Below are positions 8,993 to 55,815 of a stretch of 64,000 nucleotides of DNA, piece by piece (position 1 is the first letter of the stretch; each line of letters opens with the position of its first letter). The notes below the pieces were generated by a model that saw only the letters and a program-made list of their open reading frames with translations, was not told the origin of the DNA and ran no database searches. This DNA comes from Psychroserpens sp. SPM9 (GTDB lineage: Bacteria > Bacteroidota > Bacteroidia > Flavobacteriales > Flavobacteriaceae): positions 310,001 to 374,000 of the forward strand of contig NZ_JANZNR010000002.1 in NCBI RefSeq assembly GCF_025153525.1, given 5' to 3'. The position numbers and the translations under genes are program-made.

Positions 8993-9232
8993 TTAGATTG
9001 AAAGCTGCCTATGAACATATTGGCTTTTTAAGAGAAAAAGTTGCCTCAGTGCTGTGCTTATTTCACGATTTTTTATCGGAAGTATATCAAACTCTTCTCG
9101 ATCTCGCTCAGAAACTTTAGATTGACACGTTTTACAAATAAGTTCATATGAATTTTTAGACGCCAAAGGGGAGCGCTCTAAATTGTGTCCAAAAACCGAA
9201 CACGATAATTCGTTGGTCGTAGTGGTTTGCAT
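8993..9232 (-). CDS. Small zinc-ribbon-like protein, copy 1 of 3
   Basis: 79 residues. It has CSVFGHN near the N-terminus (Cys11, His16) and CKTC at Cys33/Cys36. Two further genes at 10428 and 10780 encode relatives with the same C-x2-FGH element, the same 22-residue spacing to a CxxC, and a similar helical tail (here IKNREISTALRQL). The Cys, His and CxxC set suggests a single zinc site. This copy is the most divergent: the region between CxxC and tail lacks the TPKY element of the other two. Function unknown. Downstream of, and convergent with, nothing obvious; about 160 bases from divergent thiL. Confidence 0.75.
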   Translation of the reverse strand: MQTTTTNELSCSVFGHNLERSPLASKNSYELICKTCQSKVSERDREEFDILPIKNREISTALRQLFLLKSQYVHRQLSI

Positions 9233-9382
9233 AGTAGGTTAAAAAAATTTGGGAAGACTAACATAGGAATTTAAATTTAACTCATCGTTAAAACACCTGT
9301 TTTTTCGATGAAATACATGTATTCGTATCTGCAGTAGTTATAAAAATGCAGCTTCTAATCATGCTCTTCTAAAAAAGCTACT

Positions 9383-10779: not shown

Positions 10780-11046
10780 CTAATATATCGATGAACTGAG
10801 TGATTTGTTCTTTAAACGAGACATTCTACGCGAATAAATATCGGCTAAAATGGCATTTATTTCTTGATATTTAGGGGTTAATTCGGTGAGTTTCCCATTT
10901 CCATTTGTGGTGAGTTGGCGCTTGCAACATTTGCAGGTATACTCCTTAACATGCGAGGTTACTTTTTTGGTCATCTCATAGTTATGTCCAAAAATATCAC
11001 AGTAAATCTTTAACGGACTTGACGATTTTGATGTAGTTTTTTTCAT
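10780..11046 (-). CDS. Small zinc-ribbon-like protein, copy 3 of 3
   Basis: 88 residues. A Lys/Ser-rich N-terminus precedes YCDIFGHNYE (Cys16, His21); then comes YTCKCCKR with a CxxC pair at Cys38/Cys41 and an extra cysteine between them. LTELTPKYQEINAILADIY and a basic tail end the protein. It shares the framework SHVKEY-C-x2-C and TTxGxGxLTxLTPKYxEIN with copy 2, so the two arose by duplication. It is 79 bases upstream of copy 2 on the same strand and may be cotranscribed. Function unknown. Confidence 0.8.
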   Translation of the reverse strand: MKKTTSKSSSPLKIYCDIFGHNYEMTKKVTSHVKEYTCKCCKRQLTTNGNGKLTELTPKYQEINAILADIYSRRMSRLKNKSLSSSIY

Positions 11047-11110
11047 GGCTGTTAGATTTGGGGAGTATAAACTTAGAAAAAAAAGTCAATTAAAACGCTT
11101 AAAAGTATTT

Positions 11111-18809: not shown

Positions 18810-19496
18810 ATGAGCGGAATTCTAAATTCGTCGATTGGAAGAAAATTTGCTATGGCACTTTCAGCATTCTTCCTTATGATTTTTATCTTACAACATTTTG
18901 CAATTAATAGCCTTTCGGTAATCAATCCAGACACTTTTAATGAAGTCTCTCACTTTATGGGAACGTTTTGGGTGATTCAATACTTATTGCAACCTGTTCT
19001 GATTTTAGGTGTTATTTTCCATTTTGTAATGGGATTTGTTCTGGAGATAAAAAACAACAAGGCAAGACAAATTAGTTATGCAAAAAATAATGGTGCGGCC
19101 AATTCTACATGGATGAGTAGAAACATGATTTGGAGTGGTGGTTTTATTCTTGTGTTTCTTGTCATTCACTTTATCGATTTTTGGATTCCTGAAATAAACA
19201 CAAAGTATATCGCTGGTGATATGTCTGGATTAATAGATCCAAATGTTGCTGATAGCGGTTACAGATACTACGAAGAATTAGTTCATAAATTTGAACCTAT
19301 TTGGAGAGTTGCATTATACTGTTTAGGTTTTATATTCTTAGCGCTCCACTTATTGCATGGCTTTAATTCGGCATTCCAATCGGTTGGCGCAAACAATAAA
19401 TACACAAAAGGTTTAAAAGGATTCGGAAAATTCTATGCTATTGTGATTCCTGTAGGATTTATTTTTATAGCATTATTCCATCATTTTTCTCACTAA
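18810..19496 (+). CDS. sdhC: Succinate dehydrogenase cytochrome b558 subunit
   Basis: 228 residues with five predicted helices (about 16-38, 55-80, 106-128, 165-188, 203-225). This is the single-subunit diheme anchor of type B succinate:quinone oxidoreductases. Candidate heme ligands are the histidines in LQHFAIN, VIFHFVMGF, VIHFIDFW and LHLLHGFNSAFQS. It passes electrons to menaquinone in the inner membrane. The succinate dehydrogenase flavoprotein gene follows 15 bases later. Preceded by a good promoter. Confidence 0.95.
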   Translation: MSGILNSSIGRKFAMALSAFFLMIFILQHFAINSLSVINPDTFNEVSHFMGTFWVIQYLLQPVLILGVIFHFVMGFVLEIKNNKARQISYAKNNGAANSTWMSRNMIWSGGFILVFLVIHFIDFWIPEINTKYIAGDMSGLIDPNVADSGYRYYEELVHKFEPIWRVALYCLGFIFLALHLLHGFNSAFQSVGANNKYTKGLKGFGKFYAIVIPVGFIFIALFHHFSH

Positions 19497-40572: not shown

Positions 40573-42471
40573 ATGAGCGATGCTTTAAAACATGAATGCG
40601 GAATTGCACTCATAAGACTTAAAAAACCATTAGAGTATTATAAAGAAAAATATGGTAGTGCATTTTACGGCGTTAATAAAATGTATCTCATGATGGAAAA
40701 ACAGCACAATCGCGGACAAGATGGTGCTGGATTTGCAAGCATAAAATTAGATACCAAACCTGGAGAGCGTTATATAAGTCGTGTACGCTCTATTGCGCAG
40801 CAACCTATACAAGATATTTTTGCTCAAATTAATGAGCGTATAAATGATGAGCTTACCGAACATCCCGAATATCAAAACGATGTAGCCTTACAAAAAAGAC
40901 ATATTCCCTATGTTGGCGAATTACTGTTAGGACATGTACGCTACGGAACGTTTGGAAAAAACAGTGTTGAAAGTGTTCACCCTTTTTTAAGACAAAATAA
41001 CTGGATGCATAGAAATCTTATCGTAGCTGGTAATTTTAATATGACTAATGTAAATCAGTTGTTTGATGGTTTGGTACAATTAGGTCAGCACCCAAAAGAA
41101 AAGGCTGATACCATTACTATAATGGAAAAAATTGGTCATTTTTTAGACGATGCAGTCGCTAAGATTTATAAAAAACTTAAAAAAGAAGGTTATAATAAAA
41201 ACGAGTGTTCGCCACTAATTGCCGAACGACTTAATGTTGCTAAAATCTTAAAAAAATCATCAAAAAACTGGGATGGTGGTTATGCGATGGCAGGACTTTT
41301 AGGCCATGGAGATTCGTTTGTTTTGCGTGATCCTTCTGGGATTCGCCCAGCTTATTACTATGAAGACGATGAGATTGTAGTTGTCGCTTCAGAGCGTCCA
41401 GTCATACAAACCGTTTTTAATGTCAATTTTGATGATGTTAAAGAGCTAGCTCCTGGTCATGCCATCATTACTAAAAAATCTGGGGAGGTTTATATTGAAG
41501 AAATCATAACGCCTTTAGAACGAAAAGCGTGTTCTTTCGAGCGTATTTATTTTTCCCGCGGAAGTGATGCCGAAATATATCAAGAACGTAAAAACCTTGG
41601 TAAACTATTAATGCCAAACGTATTAGAGGCAATTGATAACGACACTAAGAATACCGTGTTTTCTTATATTCCAAATACCGCGGAAACGTCTTTCTTCGGA
41701 ATGATAGAAACTGTTGAAAAACATTTAAACGAAAAGAAAACGCAGGCCATTTTAGATGGTAACGGGAAACTATCTGCAGAACGTGTCACTGAAATTCTTT
41801 CAGAACGACCACGCATTGAAAAGATTGCAATTAAAGATGTTAAGCTTCGGACGTTTATTACGGAAGACAGTAGTCGGGATGACTTGGTTGCTCACGTTTA
41901 TGATGTAACCTATGGTGTCATCAAATCAACAGACAATTTAGTCATTATCGATGATAGTATTGTAAGAGGAACTACGCTCAAAAAGAGTATCATTAAAATG
42001 ATGGATCGTTTGAATCCAAAACAAATCGTTGTAGTGTCTTCAGCACCGCAAATTAGATATCCTGATTGCTACGGAATCGATATGGCTAACCTTGAAAGCC
42101 TTATCGCTTTTAGAGCCATGCTGGAACTTTTAAAAGAGCGTGACAAATACCATTTAGTTGAAGAGGTCTATCATAAATGTAAAGCTCAACTGGAATTAAA
42201 AGATAGTGAGGTTAAAAACTTTGTCAAAGACTTATATAGTGAATTTACAGCTGATGAAATTTCTGATAAGATTGCAGAGTTAATTTCAGATGATACTGTA
42301 AAAGCAAAAGTGAAGACAATCTTTCAACCTATAGAAAATCTACATAAAGCCTGTCCGAAAAATTTAGGAGATTGGTATTTCACTGGAAATTATCCAACCG
42401 ATGGTGGTAACCGAGTGGTTAACAGAGCTTTCGTGAATTTTTATGAAGGAAATCAAGAAAGAGCTTATTAG
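40573..42471 (+). CDS. purF: Amidophosphoribosyltransferase (PurF family, long form)
   Basis: 632 residues, about 130 longer than classical PurF. The N-terminal glutamine amidotransferase domain starts at Cys9 after an eight-residue propeptide (MSDALKHEC), and has HNRGQDGAGFAS and GHVRYGTFG. The phosphoribosyltransferase signature is VIIDDSIVRGTTLKKS. An insertion in residues 70-120 and 160-230 and a C-terminal extension of about 100 residues set it apart. Bacteroidota often have such a long paralogue, so whether this copy makes phosphoribosylamine or another product is open. No Fe-S ligand pattern was recognised. Confidence 0.85.
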   Translation: MSDALKHECGIALIRLKKPLEYYKEKYGSAFYGVNKMYLMMEKQHNRGQDGAGFASIKLDTKPGERYISRVRSIAQQPIQDIFAQINERINDELTEHPEYQNDVALQKRHIPYVGELLLGHVRYGTFGKNSVESVHPFLRQNNWMHRNLIVAGNFNMTNVNQLFDGLVQLGQHPKEKADTITIMEKIGHFLDDAVAKIYKKLKKEGYNKNECSPLIAERLNVAKILKKSSKNWDGGYAMAGLLGHGDSFVLRDPSGIRPAYYYEDDEIVVVASERPVIQTVFNVNFDDVKELAPGHAIITKKSGEVYIEEIITPLERKACSFERIYFSRGSDAEIYQERKNLGKLLMPNVLEAIDNDTKNTVFSYIPNTAETSFFGMIETVEKHLNEKKTQAILDGNGKLSAERVTEILSERPRIEKIAIKDVKLRTFITEDSSRDDLVAHVYDVTYGVIKSTDNLVIIDDSIVRGTTLKKSIIKMMDRLNPKQIVVVSSAPQIRYPDCYGIDMANLESLIAFRAMLELLKERDKYHLVEEVYHKCKAQLELKDSEVKNFVKDLYSEFTADEISDKIAELISDDTVKAKVKTIFQPIENLHKACPKNLGDWYFTGNYPTDGGNRVVNRAFVNFYEGNQERAY

Positions 42472-42490
42472 ATAAACGGCTCATTTATGG

Positions 42491-42530
42491 CACTTTATCC
42501 CAAAAAAGTGCATTTCGCCCGATAAAAGTG
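42491..42530. repeat. Near-palindrome overlapping the direct repeats
   Basis: CACTTTATC (42491-42499) and GATAAAAGTG (42521-42530) are inverted copies apart from one extra base, enclosing the first direct repeat. Confidence 0.4.
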
Positions 42531-42537
42531 CATTTCG
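42504..42537. promoter_or_regulatory. Tandem 14-base direct repeat, possible regulator-binding site
   Basis: AAAAGTGCATTTCG occurs at 42504-42517 and 42524-42537, exactly 20 bases apart, so both would face the same side of the helix (about two turns). It lies 35-68 bases upstream of the -7 box of the first small RNA unit, the usual place for an activator such as a LytTR-type response regulator. The identity of the regulator is inference. Confidence 0.5.
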
Positions 42538-42581
42538 TCTAATATTTAACAAATCTTAGATAATAAACACATACATTGGTA

Positions 42582-42656
42582 TCACCATAACATAAGTAGG
42601 TTAAGTTCATGGTAGATTTGGGGCAAAAAAAGGTGAACTTCTGTTCACCTTTTTTT
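42582..42656 (+). ncRNA. Putative small RNA, unit 1
   Basis: A -7-like box TACATTGG (42572-42579) precedes a 49-base domain (42582-42630) that recurs at 42880 with one difference. It can fold into a hairpin: ACCAT pairs with ATGGT (42584-42588/42609-42613), then AAC with GTT and TAA with TTA, loop GTAGG, with an A-A mismatch and one bulged base. A conserved AGATTTGGGGC linker follows, then a terminator: AGGTGAAC with GTTCACCT, loop TTCT, flanked by A and T runs. The only difference between copies in the domain falls on the bulged base. No protein gene follows. Rfam identity (for example the Flavo-1 motif) was not checked. Confidence 0.6.
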
Positions 42657-42869
42657 ATGGACATAGGTTTAAACACTTCTTAAATTAAACCTAAAAAAAT
42701 CACTTCCGTTTTGTTTTTTTATAACGCATTACAAGTCAACGCATTTATATGATTACTTAAAGTTCATGTTTATTCAAGCTGTTCAACCTTCAGGACCACC
42801 GTTTTTTCCGTTTAAGCCAATTTATTCGTCGTTGGTCTAATAAATTAAATTATTAAATAAAAGTGCTGT

Positions 42870-42877
42870 TATATTTG
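42870..42877 (+). promoter_or_regulatory. Putative -7 box of small RNA unit 2
   Basis: TATATTTG, perfect TAnnTTTG, immediately before the conserved 49-base domain. AAAAGTGC, the first half of the direct repeat found before unit 1, occurs at 42859-42866. Confidence 0.6.
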
Positions 42878-42879
42878 TT

Positions 42880-42952
42880 TCACCATAACATAAGTAGGTT
42901 AAGTTTATGGTAGATTTGGGGCAAAAAAGTCGGACTCTCGTCCGGCTTTTTT
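42880..42952 (+). ncRNA. Putative small RNA, unit 2
   Basis: Second copy of the 49-base domain (42880-42928), 298 bases after the first; the same hairpin (ACCAT 42882-42886, ATGGT 42907-42911) and AGATTTGGGGC linker. The terminator is unrelated in sequence but keeps the form: GTCGGAC with GTCCGGC (7 bp, one G-T pair), loop TCTC, six T. Such conservation of fold with turnover of sequence supports a functional RNA that ends at its own terminator. The downstream gene is on the opposite strand, so this is not a leader. Confidence 0.62.
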
Positions 42953-43010
42953 CATTTTAAGTCTAATCCAAATAAGCCTTTTTAGTTTCCGAAGCCAACT
43001 AACAGATATA

Positions 43011-43042
43011 AAAAAAAGCAAACTCTAATAGAGTTTGCTTTT
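43011..43042. terminator. Terminator of the superoxide dismutase gene
   Basis: Stem of 11 bp, AAAGCAAACTC (43015-43025) with GAGTTTGCTTT (43031-43041), loop TAATA, followed on the minus strand by a run of seven T. It can also stop plus-strand transcripts from the small RNA region. Confidence 0.85.
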
Positions 43043-43064
43043 ATGTATCTAAAATTTGAAATAC

Positions 43065-43673
43065 TTACTTCGCTTCAGCATAACGACGCTCAACTTCATT
43101 CCAGTTAACAACTTTAAAGAAAGCGTCAATATAGTCTGGACGTCTATTTTGATAATTTAAATAATAAGCGTGTTCCCAAACATCTAATCCTAAAATTGGT
43201 GTGCCACCACAAGTAACACCTGGCATTAATGGATTATCTTGATTAGGTGTCGAGCAAACCTCAACTTTTCCACCTTTATGAACACAAAGCCAAGCCCATC
43301 CCGATCCAAATTGCGTTGCAGCAGCTTTACTAAAAGCTTCAACAAAGGCATCTTTTGAACCAAATTCGGCCTCAATAGCATCTTTTAAATCTCCAGATAA
43401 ATACCCTTTATCTTCAGGATTCATAACATCCCAAAATAATGAATGGTTATAAAAACCGCCACCATTATTTCTAACAGCTTTGTTATCCATGTCTAGATTT
43501 CCTAAAATAGACTCTATAGATTTTCCTTCTAAATCAGTGCCTTCAATAGCGGCATTCAATTTAGTGGTATAGCCATTGTGATGTTTAGTGTGATGTATTT
43601 CCATTGTACGTGCATCAATATGTGGTTCTAATGCATCGTATGCGTATTTTAATTTCGGTAATTCGAAAGCCAT
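43065..43673 (-). CDS. sodA: Superoxide dismutase (Fe/Mn family)
   Basis: 202 residues. The four metal ligands are seen: His in [12 protein letters not shown], His in NHSLFWDVM, and Asp and His in [20 protein letters not shown]. The N-terminal [18 protein letters not shown] is typical. It dismutates superoxide in the cytoplasm. Fe versus Mn preference cannot be settled from these motifs, so the symbol is tentative. Monocistronic, with a -7 box at 43711-43718. Confidence 0.94.
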
Positions 43674-52449: not shown

Positions 52450-53291
52450 TGAAAACAAAAAACCAAGTAGTATATCGAGACCATAAAAAGCCCATTGTTT
52501 GGGATGCGTTTTTTAAATCTAGCGGCATCCAAAAACCTATTGTAGTATTCTGCCATGGCTATAAGGGTTTTAAAGATTGGGGAGCCTGGGACTTGGTAGC
52601 TGAAACCTTTAGCAAACATGATGTGTTCTTTATCAAATTTAACTTTTCACATAATGGAGGAACGGTCGACAATCCTATTGACTTTCCAGATTTAGAGGCT
52701 TTTGCTGAAAATAACTATTCAAAAGAACTTGATGATTTAGATGACTTTCTAAACTTTATCACTTCTGAAGCATTTGAATTTAAACAAGAGATAGATACGA
52801 ACAATATAACGCTAATCGGACACTCCAGATGTGGCGGAATAGCGATATTAAAAACATCTGAAGACCAGCGCATTACAAAATTAATCACTTGGGCGAGTGT
52901 TAGTAGCTTTGGAAAACGAACCTCAACGACAGGGGATTTAAAACAATGGAAAAAAGAGGGCGTCAAGTACGTTTTAAACGGAAGAACAAAACAATACATG
53001 CCGCATAACTATCAATTCTATGAAGATTTTAAAGCCAATGAACAACGTTTGAATATAGAAGCAGCGATTAAACGCATTACAACTCCAGTGCTTATCATTC
53101 ATGCAAAAGGGGATCCTTCGGTATCTTTTAACGAAGCTGAAATTTTAAAAGCCTGTAATACTAACCATAAACTTTTTCCGATAGAAGGTTCAAATCACGT
53201 CTTTGATACTAGACATCCGTGGACACAAGATAAACTGCCAGAAGCCTTACAACTCGTGGTTGAAGAAAGTATCAAGTTTATTAAAAATTAA
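52449..53291 (+). CDS. Alpha/beta hydrolase
   Basis: 280 residues from a GTG that overlaps the stop of the AddB-like gene by one base (TAGTG), suggesting translational coupling. HGYKGFKDWGAWD forms the oxyanion side, IGHSRCGGIAI the nucleophile elbow with Ser followed by Arg-Cys, AKGDPSVSF the acid and SNHVFDTRHP the histidine, as in dienelactone-hydrolase- and BAAT-like esterases. No signal peptide. Substrate unknown; coupling with a DNA-repair gene is not an obvious functional link. Its stop overlaps the convergent histidine kinase gene by 4 bases. Confidence 0.9.
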   Translation: MKTKNQVVYRDHKKPIVWDAFFKSSGIQKPIVVFCHGYKGFKDWGAWDLVAETFSKHDVFFIKFNFSHNGGTVDNPIDFPDLEAFAENNYSKELDDLDDFLNFITSEAFEFKQEIDTNNITLIGHSRCGGIAILKTSEDQRITKLITWASVSSFGKRTSTTGDLKQWKKEGVKYVLNGRTKQYMPHNYQFYEDFKANEQRLNIEAAIKRITTPVLIIHAKGDPSVSFNEAEILKACNTNHKLFPIEGSNHVFDTRHPWTQDKLPEALQLVVEESIKFIKN

Positions 53292-55648
53292 GCAATTTTA
53301 AGCTTCGGTTGTACTTGACAAGCTTCCATCTTTTTAAATAACAAGTCTTTATTGATAGGCTTGGTCATGTAATCATTCATACCTAAAGCCATGACTTTTT
53401 GCTGAGTTTCTTCCGTAGCATCAGCAGTAACAGCTATGATTGGTATCTCACTAATAGTATGACCTAATTGTCCGCTTCTAATAATTTTTGTGGCTTCATA
53501 GCCATCCATTACAGGCATTTGAAGATCCATTAATACCACATCAAAAACATCATTTTTTAATGCTTCTAATGCTTCCTGACCATTGTTAACTACAAAAAAG
53601 CTCATTTGAGAATTGGTCGACAACAACTTTTTTATCACCATTTGATTCATCTTATTGTCTTCAACCACTAAAACATGTTGCTTTAGTTTTGCGTGTTGAC
53701 GAGATTGTACTTTAGGTGCTTCAACGTCTTCTATATACTGTAATGGTAATTCAATAAATACATTGGTTCCTTGTTCTAATTTACTTTCGATTTGAATGGA
53801 ACCCTCAAATAATTCAACTAAATGTTTAACGATTGTTAATCCCAGACCAATCCCTCCAAATTGACGCTTATGATTTAAACGCATTTGATTAAAACTATCA
53901 AAAACGTTCTTTTTACTGTTGTCGTCCATACCAATTCCTGTGTCAGCTATTTGAATTGAAAAACGAGAGATATGATTGGGTTGGGGAGAGCATTTTAGTT
54001 TAAACTTAATCTGTCCTTTTTCAGTAAACTTTACAGCATTACTCAACACATTATTTATAATCTGTATGAAGCGCTCAGCATCTCCAATGATCGTCGTAGG
54101 AATTTCATAATCGATATCAAACTTATAGCTTATACCTTTTTTCTCTGCTTCGGATTTCCAGTTATTACTAATTTGATTGACTAGTAAGGACGGATTAAAG
54201 GCTTCGCTTTTAAGTTTGAGCTCATTCTTTTCTATCTTTTCAAAGTCTAAAATATCATTAACATTGCTCAACAAACTTAATGACGCATTTTTAATAACTT
54301 GGTATTGCTCTCTGTCTTCTAAAGTATGTTTTGGGCTTTTTAGTTCTAATTCGGCAATACCCATAATTGCATTAATTGGCGTACGTAATTCATGACTTAT
54401 ATTAGACATAAAGTAGGTTTTCAGCTCACTTATTTCTTCAGATTTTTGAAGCGCTTCTTCTTGTGAATGTTCTTTTTCTTCTCGCAATCTTCTCAATAAA
54501 TTGGTCATTGATAAGGATAAGAAAATGACCTCAAAACCAGAACCAAATTTAGCACTGTTCAAGGTGTAGAAATTATTAGGAATTAAACTTAAGTTATTCA
54601 TCACAAAACCTAATAAACCCAGAACTAAGAAAAATATTCCAACAGAAAAATAAGGGTCAATAGACATACGTTTAATACGCATTTTAAATACTGTTACCAA
54701 TATTAAAATTAAGCTGAACAAACCATTAACATTACTTATTGGGTAAACTAGTTCTAATGTTTTCGGACTTATAAATACCATCACAAATAGAACGGCTAAA
54801 ACGCCATAAATAAGATTATAAGCCTTTTTAAATGATGCCAGTTGCGTATCTACTTTTAAGAAATACTCACAATATTTTAAAAGAAAAAAGTTAGATGATA
54901 ATGCTGTAATCAAAACAGCTCTACTATTTAAAAACCCACCTTCTGGTAATATGTATTGAAAAATAAAACCATCTAGTGCTGCCTGCATTAATCCAATAGA
55001 AAACACATAAATACCATAGTATAAAAAGGTTTTTTCTCTGAGGCTTGAATAAAAGAATAAGTAAATGATACTAGCCAAAAAGAGTAGTCCATAAAACAAT
55101 CCTAAAAACAATTGTTGTTTATAATTCATCATCCAAAAAGACGATTCGTCATAAAGGTTTAAAGGCATGTTAATAGTTTCTCCATCACTTTTAAAATGCA
55201 AATAATACTCTTGTATCGCATTGGGTTGCAGCGTAATTTTAAAAACGGTAAGTCTGTGTGCTACTTGGCGTTCAGAAAAAGCAACTTGATCACCACTTTT
55301 AAATACTTCAACTTCAGATTCTGAAACTTGATACAAATTTGCAATATCTGTGATTGGTCTTGCCGTCTCTAAATAATACGTTTCTTGTTCATCAGACGTA
55401 TTTTCGAGTTGAAATCGAACCCAGAAATTATCAGATGTAAATCCGACACTTTGGTTTTCAGAATTAAAAGGGTGAAAAACTTTAGAGGAGTCGTTTACTA
55501 CAGTTAACACATCAAAATCTTGAGTTTTGACATTTGTAAATTCGGCGTACTCGTAAAGTTGTCCTTTACTTTTTTGCGGATTGAATGGTAAGTCTTGAGC
55601 ATAAACGCTAAGACCTATAAAATAGGTAAGTAGTAGTGTTAGTTTCAT
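53288..55648 (-). CDS. Hybrid sensor histidine kinase with 7TMR-DISM input domain
   Basis: 786 residues from the ATG at 55648, which gives a clean signal peptide (MKLTLLLTYFIGLSVYAQ); a GTG 81 bases upstream is unlikely. Order: extracellular DISMED2-like beta domain (about 25-165), seven transmembrane helices (about 175-385), HisKA with phospho-acceptor His419 in ISHELRTPINAIMG, HATPase with GIGMDD and GGIGLGLTIVKHL (about 515-635), and a receiver domain with Asp708 in VVLMDLQMPVMDGYE. It probably senses a carbohydrate-like or other small ligand. The output partner is not encoded nearby; the orphan state fits phosphotransfer to a distant regulator. Confidence 0.94.
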   Translation of the reverse strand: MKLTLLLTYFIGLSVYAQDLPFNPQKSKGQLYEYAEFTNVKTQDFDVLTVVNDSSKVFHPFNSENQSVGFTSDNFWVRFQLENTSDEQETYYLETARPITDIANLYQVSESEVEVFKSGDQVAFSERQVAHRLTVFKITLQPNAIQEYYLHFKSDGETINMPLNLYDESSFWMMNYKQQLFLGLFYGLLFLASIIYLFFYSSLREKTFLYYGIYVFSIGLMQAALDGFIFQYILPEGGFLNSRAVLITALSSNFFLLKYCEYFLKVDTQLASFKKAYNLIYGVLAVLFVMVFISPKTLELVYPISNVNGLFSLILILVTVFKMRIKRMSIDPYFSVGIFFLVLGLLGFVMNNLSLIPNNFYTLNSAKFGSGFEVIFLSLSMTNLLRRLREEKEHSQEEALQKSEEISELKTYFMSNISHELRTPINAIMGIAELELKSPKHTLEDREQYQVIKNASLSLLSNVNDILDFEKIEKNELKLKSEAFNPSLLVNQISNNWKSEAEKKGISYKFDIDYEIPTTIIGDAERFIQIINNVLSNAVKFTEKGQIKFKLKCSPQPNHISRFSIQIADTGIGMDDNSKKNVFDSFNQMRLNHKRQFGGIGLGLTIVKHLVELFEGSIQIESKLEQGTNVFIELPLQYIEDVEAPKVQSRQHAKLKQHVLVVEDNKMNQMVIKKLLSTNSQMSFFVVNNGQEALEALKNDVFDVVLMDLQMPVMDGYEATKIIRSGQLGHTISEIPIIAVTADATEETQQKVMALGMNDYMTKPINKDLLFKKMEACQVQPKLKIA

Positions 55649-55815
55649 GTTTGGGGCATTTAACTGTGAACAACATACGAGAAAAAAATTAATAATGATT
55701 TTATTTAAAGCTAAAAATCGATAAATCACCTATTTATAGGGTGTAATTCACTTTGTTACAGTAAAAAACACAATAATTACAGCTTAATATCTATAAAAGC
55801 AGTCGCCTTAAGAAT

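Follow-up and report, generated by a model that had tools for sequence, protein, structure and literature searches.

A tandem pair of predicted base-pairing small RNAs behind a LytTR-type operator, from a family conserved in the Flavobacteriaceae

Described small RNAs and the locus between purF and sod

The Qrr RNAs of Vibrio are multicopy regulatory RNAs with small differences between the copies, and SroC and the chbBC decoy are sponge RNAs that titrate a small RNA. The RNAs considered here resemble Qrr in being near-identical siblings, and their predicted antisense partner resembles SroC and the chbBC decoy as an RNA titrating a small RNA; to our knowledge no sequence relation exists between them and any of these RNAs, from which they differ in that siblings, predicted targets and predicted sponge here stand under one operator.

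In Bacteroides thetaiotaomicron, the FopS/GibS RNAs (RF04319) are multicopy, measure about 65-75 nt and pair near start codons (PMC11697453). As far as that account describes them, they are like the present RNA in size, in copy number, in their TAnnTTTG-type promoters, in a conserved 5' part and in changing terminators, and both hold the stretch UUCAUGGUA..AGAUUU. For the present RNA, the leaders of P2, of a P1 orthologue and of a hydrophobic protein family (all described below) are predicted to pair at the AUG. The account also presents binding by the RRM protein RbpB as a feature of FopS, gives SusC transporters as targets, where ours are predicted to be P1, P2 and the hydrophobic family, and depicts FopS without the 5' hairpin arm found here; its passages on the promoters call them canonical and mention no LytTR-type operator.

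We searched the window, by which we mean the whole stretch of 64,000 nucleotides of Psychroserpens sp. SPM9 that was analysed, against Rfam; at gathering score it gave no match except a tRNA elsewhere in the window, and neither Flavo-1 nor 6S is among the 40 lax matches at 42500-43060. The initial annotation had left the choice between a known motif such as Flavo-1 and a new RNA; since no Rfam family is reached at gathering score and Flavo-1 and 6S are missing from the lax matches, Flavo-1, 6S and the other Rfam families were rejected and the second branch is the better one. Rfp18, a conserved small RNA of Flavobacterium psychrophilum with metalloprotease targets, is described with a third stem-loop (PMC9723704), whereas the present RNA has two hairpins, and on this comparison of descriptions the two are probably different. 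We found no account of this RNA in the literature seen, and it may have been sighted earlier as one of the 85 new Rfp RNAs of that paper. With Rfp18 set apart by description only, we call the small RNA family new, and its wiring into a regulon a variant not described before.

The tandem units and their conservation

Both units lie between a purF-like gene (40573-42471, plus strand) upstream and a convergent sod-like gene (43065-43673, minus strand) downstream, each named by eye from its translation. A domain of 49 bases occurs at 42582-42630 and at 42880-42928 with one difference, C in copy A and T in copy B, and the extended repeat (42572-42630 versus 42870-42928) matches at 93% over 59 nt. 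A genome-wide pattern count confirms this duplication, which the initial annotation had reported: at no more than three mismatches, the two copies are the only ones in the 3.8-Mb genome, and the reversed control pattern gives 0.

Copy A is preceded by the -7 box TACATTGG (42572..42579, plus strand) and by a predicted operator (42490..42541, plus strand) of three LytTR/YpdB-type half-sites, GCACTTTATC, GCATTTCGCC and GCATTTCGTC, at 20 bp spacing (half-site pairs of 20.6 and 26.0 bits), with the operator start 62 bp before the box. Small RNA A, of about 75 nt from a putative 5' end (42583..42657, plus strand), would comprise a 5' hairpin, the linker AGATTTGGGGC and an intrinsic terminator predicted from sequence at 42625..42656 (plus strand), and carries the C at the position of the difference. 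Copy B, on the same strand, has its predicted operator at 42808..42839 (CCGTTTAAGCC...GTCGTTGGTCTA, 16.9 bits), strongly conserved across 26 aligned relatives and again starting 62 bp before the -7 box, TATATTTG at 42870..42877; small RNA B, about 73 nt and likewise with a putative 5' end, would extend over 42881..42953, with the T and with a predicted intrinsic terminator at 42923..42952.

Whole-RNA folds are more stable than those of shuffled sequences (z of -3.6 and -4.4, with 0 of 200 shuffles as good for each RNA), and the 5' hairpin alone reaches a z of only -0.9. The predicted fold agrees with the hairpin initially drawn, in which the annotation had put the difference at the bulged base, and the boxes and terminators are present where they had been placed. 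The absence of a coding gene after either copy on its strand also holds, as the plus strand 3' of the units has no ORF of at least 50 aa before 43788 and the sod-like gene is convergent. Judged by sequence, each unit has its own promoter and terminator without a downstream coding gene, as is characteristic of trans-acting small RNAs.

A covariance model built from 24 copies was used to search 397 sampled genomes of Flavobacteriaceae, and 328 of them, in 205 of 237 genera, match at E<=0.001 (311 at E<=1e-8, and 17 of the 328 with a best E above 1e-8), with 1 to 7 copies per genome; the homologues that such a model was proposed to find therefore exist. Hosts by name, in at least 118 stretches, include Zobellia, Maribacter, Winogradskyella, Aquimarina, Algibacter and Flavobacterium, and among the matches listed two or more copies occur in 65 of 118 named stretches. 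Tandem expansion to 4-7 copies was seen at four loci (L044, L045, L100, L109), Zobellia among them. The covariance search reached as far as the order, where a search of 296 genomes gave 14 outside the family that match at E<=0.001 (best 41 bits) and that we took for terminator look-alikes. Viral contigs gave 0 exact matches of the core pattern.

The genomic location is largely fixed. Among 233 core-bearing loci, in which some genomes are counted more than once, 183 have a purF-like gene upstream and a sod-like gene downstream, 25 have purF only, 15 have sod only and 10 have neither, partly because the stretches end. Without exception, the 26 purF-sod loci that were aligned (L003-L028) have the C copy ahead of the T copy. 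Of 429 distinct upstream regions, 417 have a -7 box with no more than one mismatch at a distance of 4-6 nt from the core, and in 366 of these 417 the distance is exactly 4 nt.

The anatomy of the RNA was studied in an alignment of 150 matches (117 distinct rows), which was fitted to the covariance model and so leans towards it. Compensatory changes are found in 9 of the 11 pairs of the terminator helix. In the 5' hairpin, 98.5% of cells are paired with one doubly changed cell; 7 of 11 pairs are invariant, two vary from A-U to G-U and one is broken in 16 rows, which fits the loop variant CATTAGTAGG of 19 of the 150 copies, mostly from the genus Flavobacterium. Because the hairpin pairs are mostly invariant and hardly covary, the 5' hairpin is conserved as sequence. 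The covariation of stem pairs that the initial annotation had looked to for support is thus found in the terminator, while the 5' hairpin is kept with a compensatory change in a single cell. The suggestion that the terminators have no stem sequence in common is correct for this genome; in many relatives both copies have the common ends GGTGAAC...GTTCACC. Near-invariance across the family, a mostly fixed box spacing and covarying terminators support the view that each unit would encode a stand-alone RNA of about 75 nt, the two having their 5' domain in common.

Some copies depart from this pattern. A subclass in L102, L105, L109, L139 and L148 has the linker GATTTGGGACG and a different conserved upstream sequence, ATACCAGTAATTTAG, in which operator repeats are not clear by eye. 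Strongly diverged copies, AAGTAAAGTTCATGGTAAAAATTTGGGGC, in L119 and L120 (genomes G243 and G410; in tandem in L120) are distant family members, with direct repeats upstream still visible by eye.

A LytTR-type operator, candidate targets and a predicted antisense RNA

According to the description in PMC4847170, a LytTR-controlled promoter has a pair of repeats upstream of it, direct or inverse, each 9-11 nt long and with 11-13 nt between them; the site bound by E. coli YpdB is GGCATTTCAT as a direct repeat, with a distance of 21 bp in the yhjX oligonucleotide as printed. In 417 aligned regions, a direct repeat with the fitted half-site GCaTTTcATCtA lies upstream of the -7 box; the period is 20 (a half-site of 9 nt plus 11) in 332 of the 417, and the first half-site begins at -61 or -62 from the box in 343. 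This period, and that of 21 in most promoters of the hydrophobic family, are those of LytTR repeats. The half-site here is GCATTTCATC, 20 or 21 bp apart, as against 21 bp for YpdB at yhjX, and YpdB acts there on the yhjX gene, whereas the operator here precedes small RNAs, predicted targets and an antisense RNA. The architecture is that of LytTR sites, to which a LytTR protein would be expected to bind.

Among the training regions, 82% score above the 99th percentile of the window background, a self-inclusive figure. Seven sites of at least 14 bits occur in the window, versus 0-3 in each of five mononucleotide shuffles. Copy A has two of them, which overlap, and copy B has one; the other four are minus-strand sites (9285, 11095, 20656 and 32514), and to the last two of these we give no meaning. 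The genome has 13 LytTR genes, and a search for an operator linked to one of them found a site of at least 15 bits at only 2 of the 13 loci; the one of these two sites that was inspected is at the 3' end of the regulator gene. In the upstream context, the -7 boxes are as the initial annotation had them, and the operator, targets and sponge are additions to it.

The sites at 9285 and 11095 each precede a gene for a small Cys-containing protein, DUF1660-like below the Pfam cut-off: P1 (79 aa, 8993..9232) and P2 (88 aa, 10780..11046), both on the minus strand like all their elements. The predicted P1 operator (9285..9316, 23.6 bits) lies 51 bp before the -7 box TATGTTAG (9258-9265), and that of P2 (11095..11126, 14.5 bits) 51 bp before TAAGTTTA (11068-11075); P1 and P2 operators of at least 12 bits stand at -51 or -52 from the box, about one helical turn nearer than at the small RNAs. 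The P1 leader (9233..9257) reads TCTTCCCAAATTTTTTTAACCTACT followed by ATG and is complementary to linker and loop. The P2 leader (11047..11067) reads TACTCCCCAAATCTAACAGCC followed by ATG, and its CCCCAAATCTA (11053-11063) is perfectly complementary, over 11 nt, to TAGATTTGGGG of the small RNA. Leaders match the linker with CCCCAAATCT and the hairpin loop with ACCTACTTATG, frequently where the start codon lies. The linker region thus has its exact complement in CCCCAAATCTA, and the loop region has its own in AACCTACT(T)ATG, give or take one base.

P1 and P2 were sought within the genus of the window, in 16 stretches of 20 kb fetched in relatives at the corresponding distance. P2 orthologues were found in 11 of the 16, and 10 of the 11 leaders keep CCCAAAT, with L454 reading TAGCAAATCT; an operator of at least 12 bits precedes 8 of 12 P2 genes, the window's included, and the other four score 6.3, 8.2, 10.5 and 10.5. 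P1 orthologues were found in 10 stretches by a scan that itself required an operator of at least 12 bits; 9 of the 10 leaders keep CCCAAAT, and 7 of the 10 have ACCTACT or ACCTACTT directly before the ATG.

When 242 gene starts (window plus 10 syntenic stretches in which both genes occur) were ranked by pairing energy, P1 and P2 took ranks 1-13, 15 and 16, in a ranking where orthologues are not independent and control genes could choose among alternative starts. The P2 leader pairs at -30.6 kcal/mol, with 0 of 300 shuffled small RNAs as good, and the P1 leader at -22.8 kcal/mol, with 8 of 300, which is moderate alone; two P1 orthologue leaders reach -25.1 and -27.0 kcal/mol (1 of 300 each), all duplex energies given here ignoring accessibility. 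In the predicted P2 duplex, UUCAUGG of copy A stands opposite CCAUGAA of the mRNA, with the base that differs between A and B facing the G of AUG.

Complements of the core are not in excess, either genome-wide (72 versus 108 for the reversed control in this genome) or in the window (4 of at least 10 nt versus 6.2 expected). Targets would therefore be few, and their case rests on position and conservation; two of the four window complements of at least 10 nt outside the small RNAs lie directly behind an operator and before a start codon. The initial annotation had the RNAs possibly acting through the invariant linker, with which the complementarity of the linker to conserved leaders agrees; as a correction to it, the sequence of stem and loop is probably a pairing surface too.

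Three further genes in the window were noted. No operator precedes P3 (10431-10700, minus strand), which lies next to P2 and is its paralogue, 55% identical in the tblastn match. The gene for an 813-aa hybrid histidine kinase of the 7TMR-DISM type (53287-55729, minus strand) starts in ATGCCCCAAACATGAAA, complementary to the linker, and has the second-best pairing energy of 56 window gene starts, without an operator of at least 14 bits. A possible target is a gene (M.F.LQHF.IN.LSV...FNEVSHFMG) whose orthologues in L451, L452, L453, L454 and L456 rank 14, 17, 18, 19 and 22 for pairing of the start region and whose window copy (18810-19496, plus strand) is fifth in the window.

For a second group of candidate targets, family-wide matches to TTTGN{2,6}ACCTACTTAT were counted, which number 57 versus 51 for the reversed control. 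We read 50 of the 57, and 23 of these follow a full -7 box; 15 of the 23 are leaders of one family of hydrophobic proteins of about 250 aa, 7 of these 15 coming from genomes also used to build the profile of that family. Neither Pfam nor NCBIfam has an entry that this protein family reaches at cut-off. Of 32 genomes searched, 23 contain it, and two Flavobacteriaceae genomes were noted as giving no match. Its leaders are complementary to the small RNA (for example TATATTTGTTCAACCTACTTATAAAAATCTACTATG in L346): 14 of the 23 hold CCTACTTA or AAATCTACC exactly, and the other 9 have shorter matches or none. Upstream, 18 of 19 have an operator at p<0.01 against the window background, at sites that were not used for training and in a comparison of 130-bp stretches with 90-bp background stretches; in 18 of 19 the top-scoring site has reverse orientation and a period of 21, and that of L339 has the other orientation and a period of 23. 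Taken singly, the leaders give moderate energies, matched by 5, 18 and 1 of 300 shuffles, and in these predicted duplexes the A/B base likewise faces the AUG. Complementarity to mRNA is conserved, by sequence, both in the P1 and P2 leaders of relatives and in those of the hydrophobic family.

In Flavobacterium, where the loop is AUUAGUAGG, no matching leader family was found (48 places versus 57 for the control), so this genus offers no compensatory test. Of 13 g146 genomes that were searched, 3 contain the hydrophobic family (3 of 34 over all genomes), and there it lacks the leader site. Separately, L351 and L384 have a second gene family, of secreted proteins (SDLIYAYSHVKS by eye), with TTTG-N-CACCTACTTAT leaders and no operator of at least 14 bits, and one relative (L435) has a 15-bit operator followed by a leader with AACCTACTTATG, beside which a 123-aa ORF starts.

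An antisense RNA is predicted on the same contig at about 583.3-583.5 kb, between ABC-transporter and CoA-transferase genes (named by eye). It would contain repeated antisense copies of the core, as in TTTGCCCCAAATCTATCATAAACTTTAACTTATGAA...TTTTGCCCCAAATCTAC of a relative; most such loci have two or three copies, and L436 has one recognisable copy. The loci were found through similarity to the core, which makes their complementarity a product of the way they were chosen; the operator is not, and it is present at 15-26 bits on the antisense-reading strand in 21 of 21 loci (21 genomes, 4 genera), at sites that were not used for training. The finder places the -7 box at -51 in 8 of the loci; in the others, where its placement is -49 (4 loci) or -44 (9 loci), inspection by eye also finds a CATATTAG-like box at -51. 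In this genome the predicted pairing reaches -39.2 kcal/mol (0 of 300 shuffles as good), and the sponge strand has no ORF of at least 60 aa at this place. The antisense RNA would most likely act as a sponge that titrates the small RNAs. In seven genomes (L427-L433), antisense core copies immediately follow the stop codon of a gene for a secreted protein (T9SS-type by eye) and lie before its terminator, without an operator of at least 14 bits, as a putative 3' UTR sponge or 3' UTR target.

Proposed circuit, alternatives and significance

We propose, with a probability of roughly 0.78, that each of the two units is the gene of a small RNA that acts in trans by base-pairing, and that this pair of RNAs would block translation inside a LytTR regulon. 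The direct-repeat operator would switch both RNAs on, presumably through LytTR activation. Each RNA would offer two seeds, the hairpin loop AUAAGUAGGU and the single-stranded linker AGAUUUGGGG, to the short 5' leaders of mRNAs of the same regulon, namely P1, P2 and the hydrophobic protein of about 250 aa. Pairing at or next to the start codon would most likely block translation initiation, and with the operator on both the small RNAs and their targets this would form an incoherent feed-forward loop. The third RNA behind the same operator would most likely soak up the small RNAs and relieve the targets. As the A/B base (C or U) faces the G of AUG, we propose a division of labour in which the siblings may differ in target preference. 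More tentatively, and with somewhat less than even confidence, we picture a closed RNA circuit in which one LytTR switch serves two-seed siblings that split the work, the mRNAs they silence and a sponge, the operator-to-promoter spacing of the small RNAs differing by about one helical turn from that of targets and sponge; the small RNAs occur throughout the family, four genera yielded the sponge, and the search for P1 and P2 covered the genus of the window.

That the RNAs are distant members of the FopS/GibS family, which also pairs near start codons, is unlikely. The common stretch, the size, the type of -7 box, the multiple copies, the changing terminators and the similar proposed action agree with it, but the FopS model gives 22.8-23.2 bits here where its gathering score is 56, the local similarity is reached by 200 of 5000 shuffles, FopS is without the 5' arm, and the model matches 4 of 119 genomes of the class and none of the family genomes shown (G000, G171 and G360); true homology was rejected on the scores and the shuffles. 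We also consider it rather improbable that the pairing is real and activating, protecting or opening the mRNAs in a coherent feed-forward loop with the sponge as an ordinary target: sites at the very 5' end, immediately following the -7 box, would permit 5'-end protection, and for one type the site is in a 3' UTR, just past the stop codon, but P2, several P1 orthologues and the leaders of the hydrophobic family would pair over the AUG, which normally blocks initiation, and the sponge strand at that place of this genome has no ORF of at least 60 aa.

CsrB and RsmZ titrate CsrA and RsmA, and the RNAs could similarly be decoys for an RNA-binding protein, which would recognise the invariant hairpin and GGGG linker while no mRNA is paired. 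The stem is indeed more invariant than folding needs, and tandem arrays of up to 7 copies would suit titration; a protein site, however, would recur in sense, whereas conserved copies of the core stand in antisense in leaders, sponge RNA and 3' UTRs, and the weak relatives that were followed up read antisense in their own transcripts, and we hold this explanation to be very unlikely. A near-perfect repeat with tandem expansion in some genera might also bring to mind a repeat acting at the DNA level or a mobile one (a transposon remnant or a recombination site) with promoter-like flanks by chance, but this is scarcely credible given the mostly fixed purF-sod location, A and B orthologues that stay distinct in 26 of 26 aligned pairs, covarying terminators and the lack of exact core-pattern matches in viral contigs. 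Our preferred reading remains that of base-pairing small RNAs inside a LytTR regulon.

Regulation by small RNAs is hardly charted in flavobacteria, a family abundant in the sea, in soil and in fresh water. About four fifths of the sampled genomes of the family have the RNA described here almost unchanged in sequence, and yet it is missing from Rfam. It can be linked to a promoter code, to named candidate targets, to an antisense partner and to a candidate regulator class. It raises the further question of why two siblings with a single differing base stay distinct, and it provides directly testable hypotheses on the role of the small Cys-containing proteins and the hydrophobic protein and on the signal of the LytTR system.
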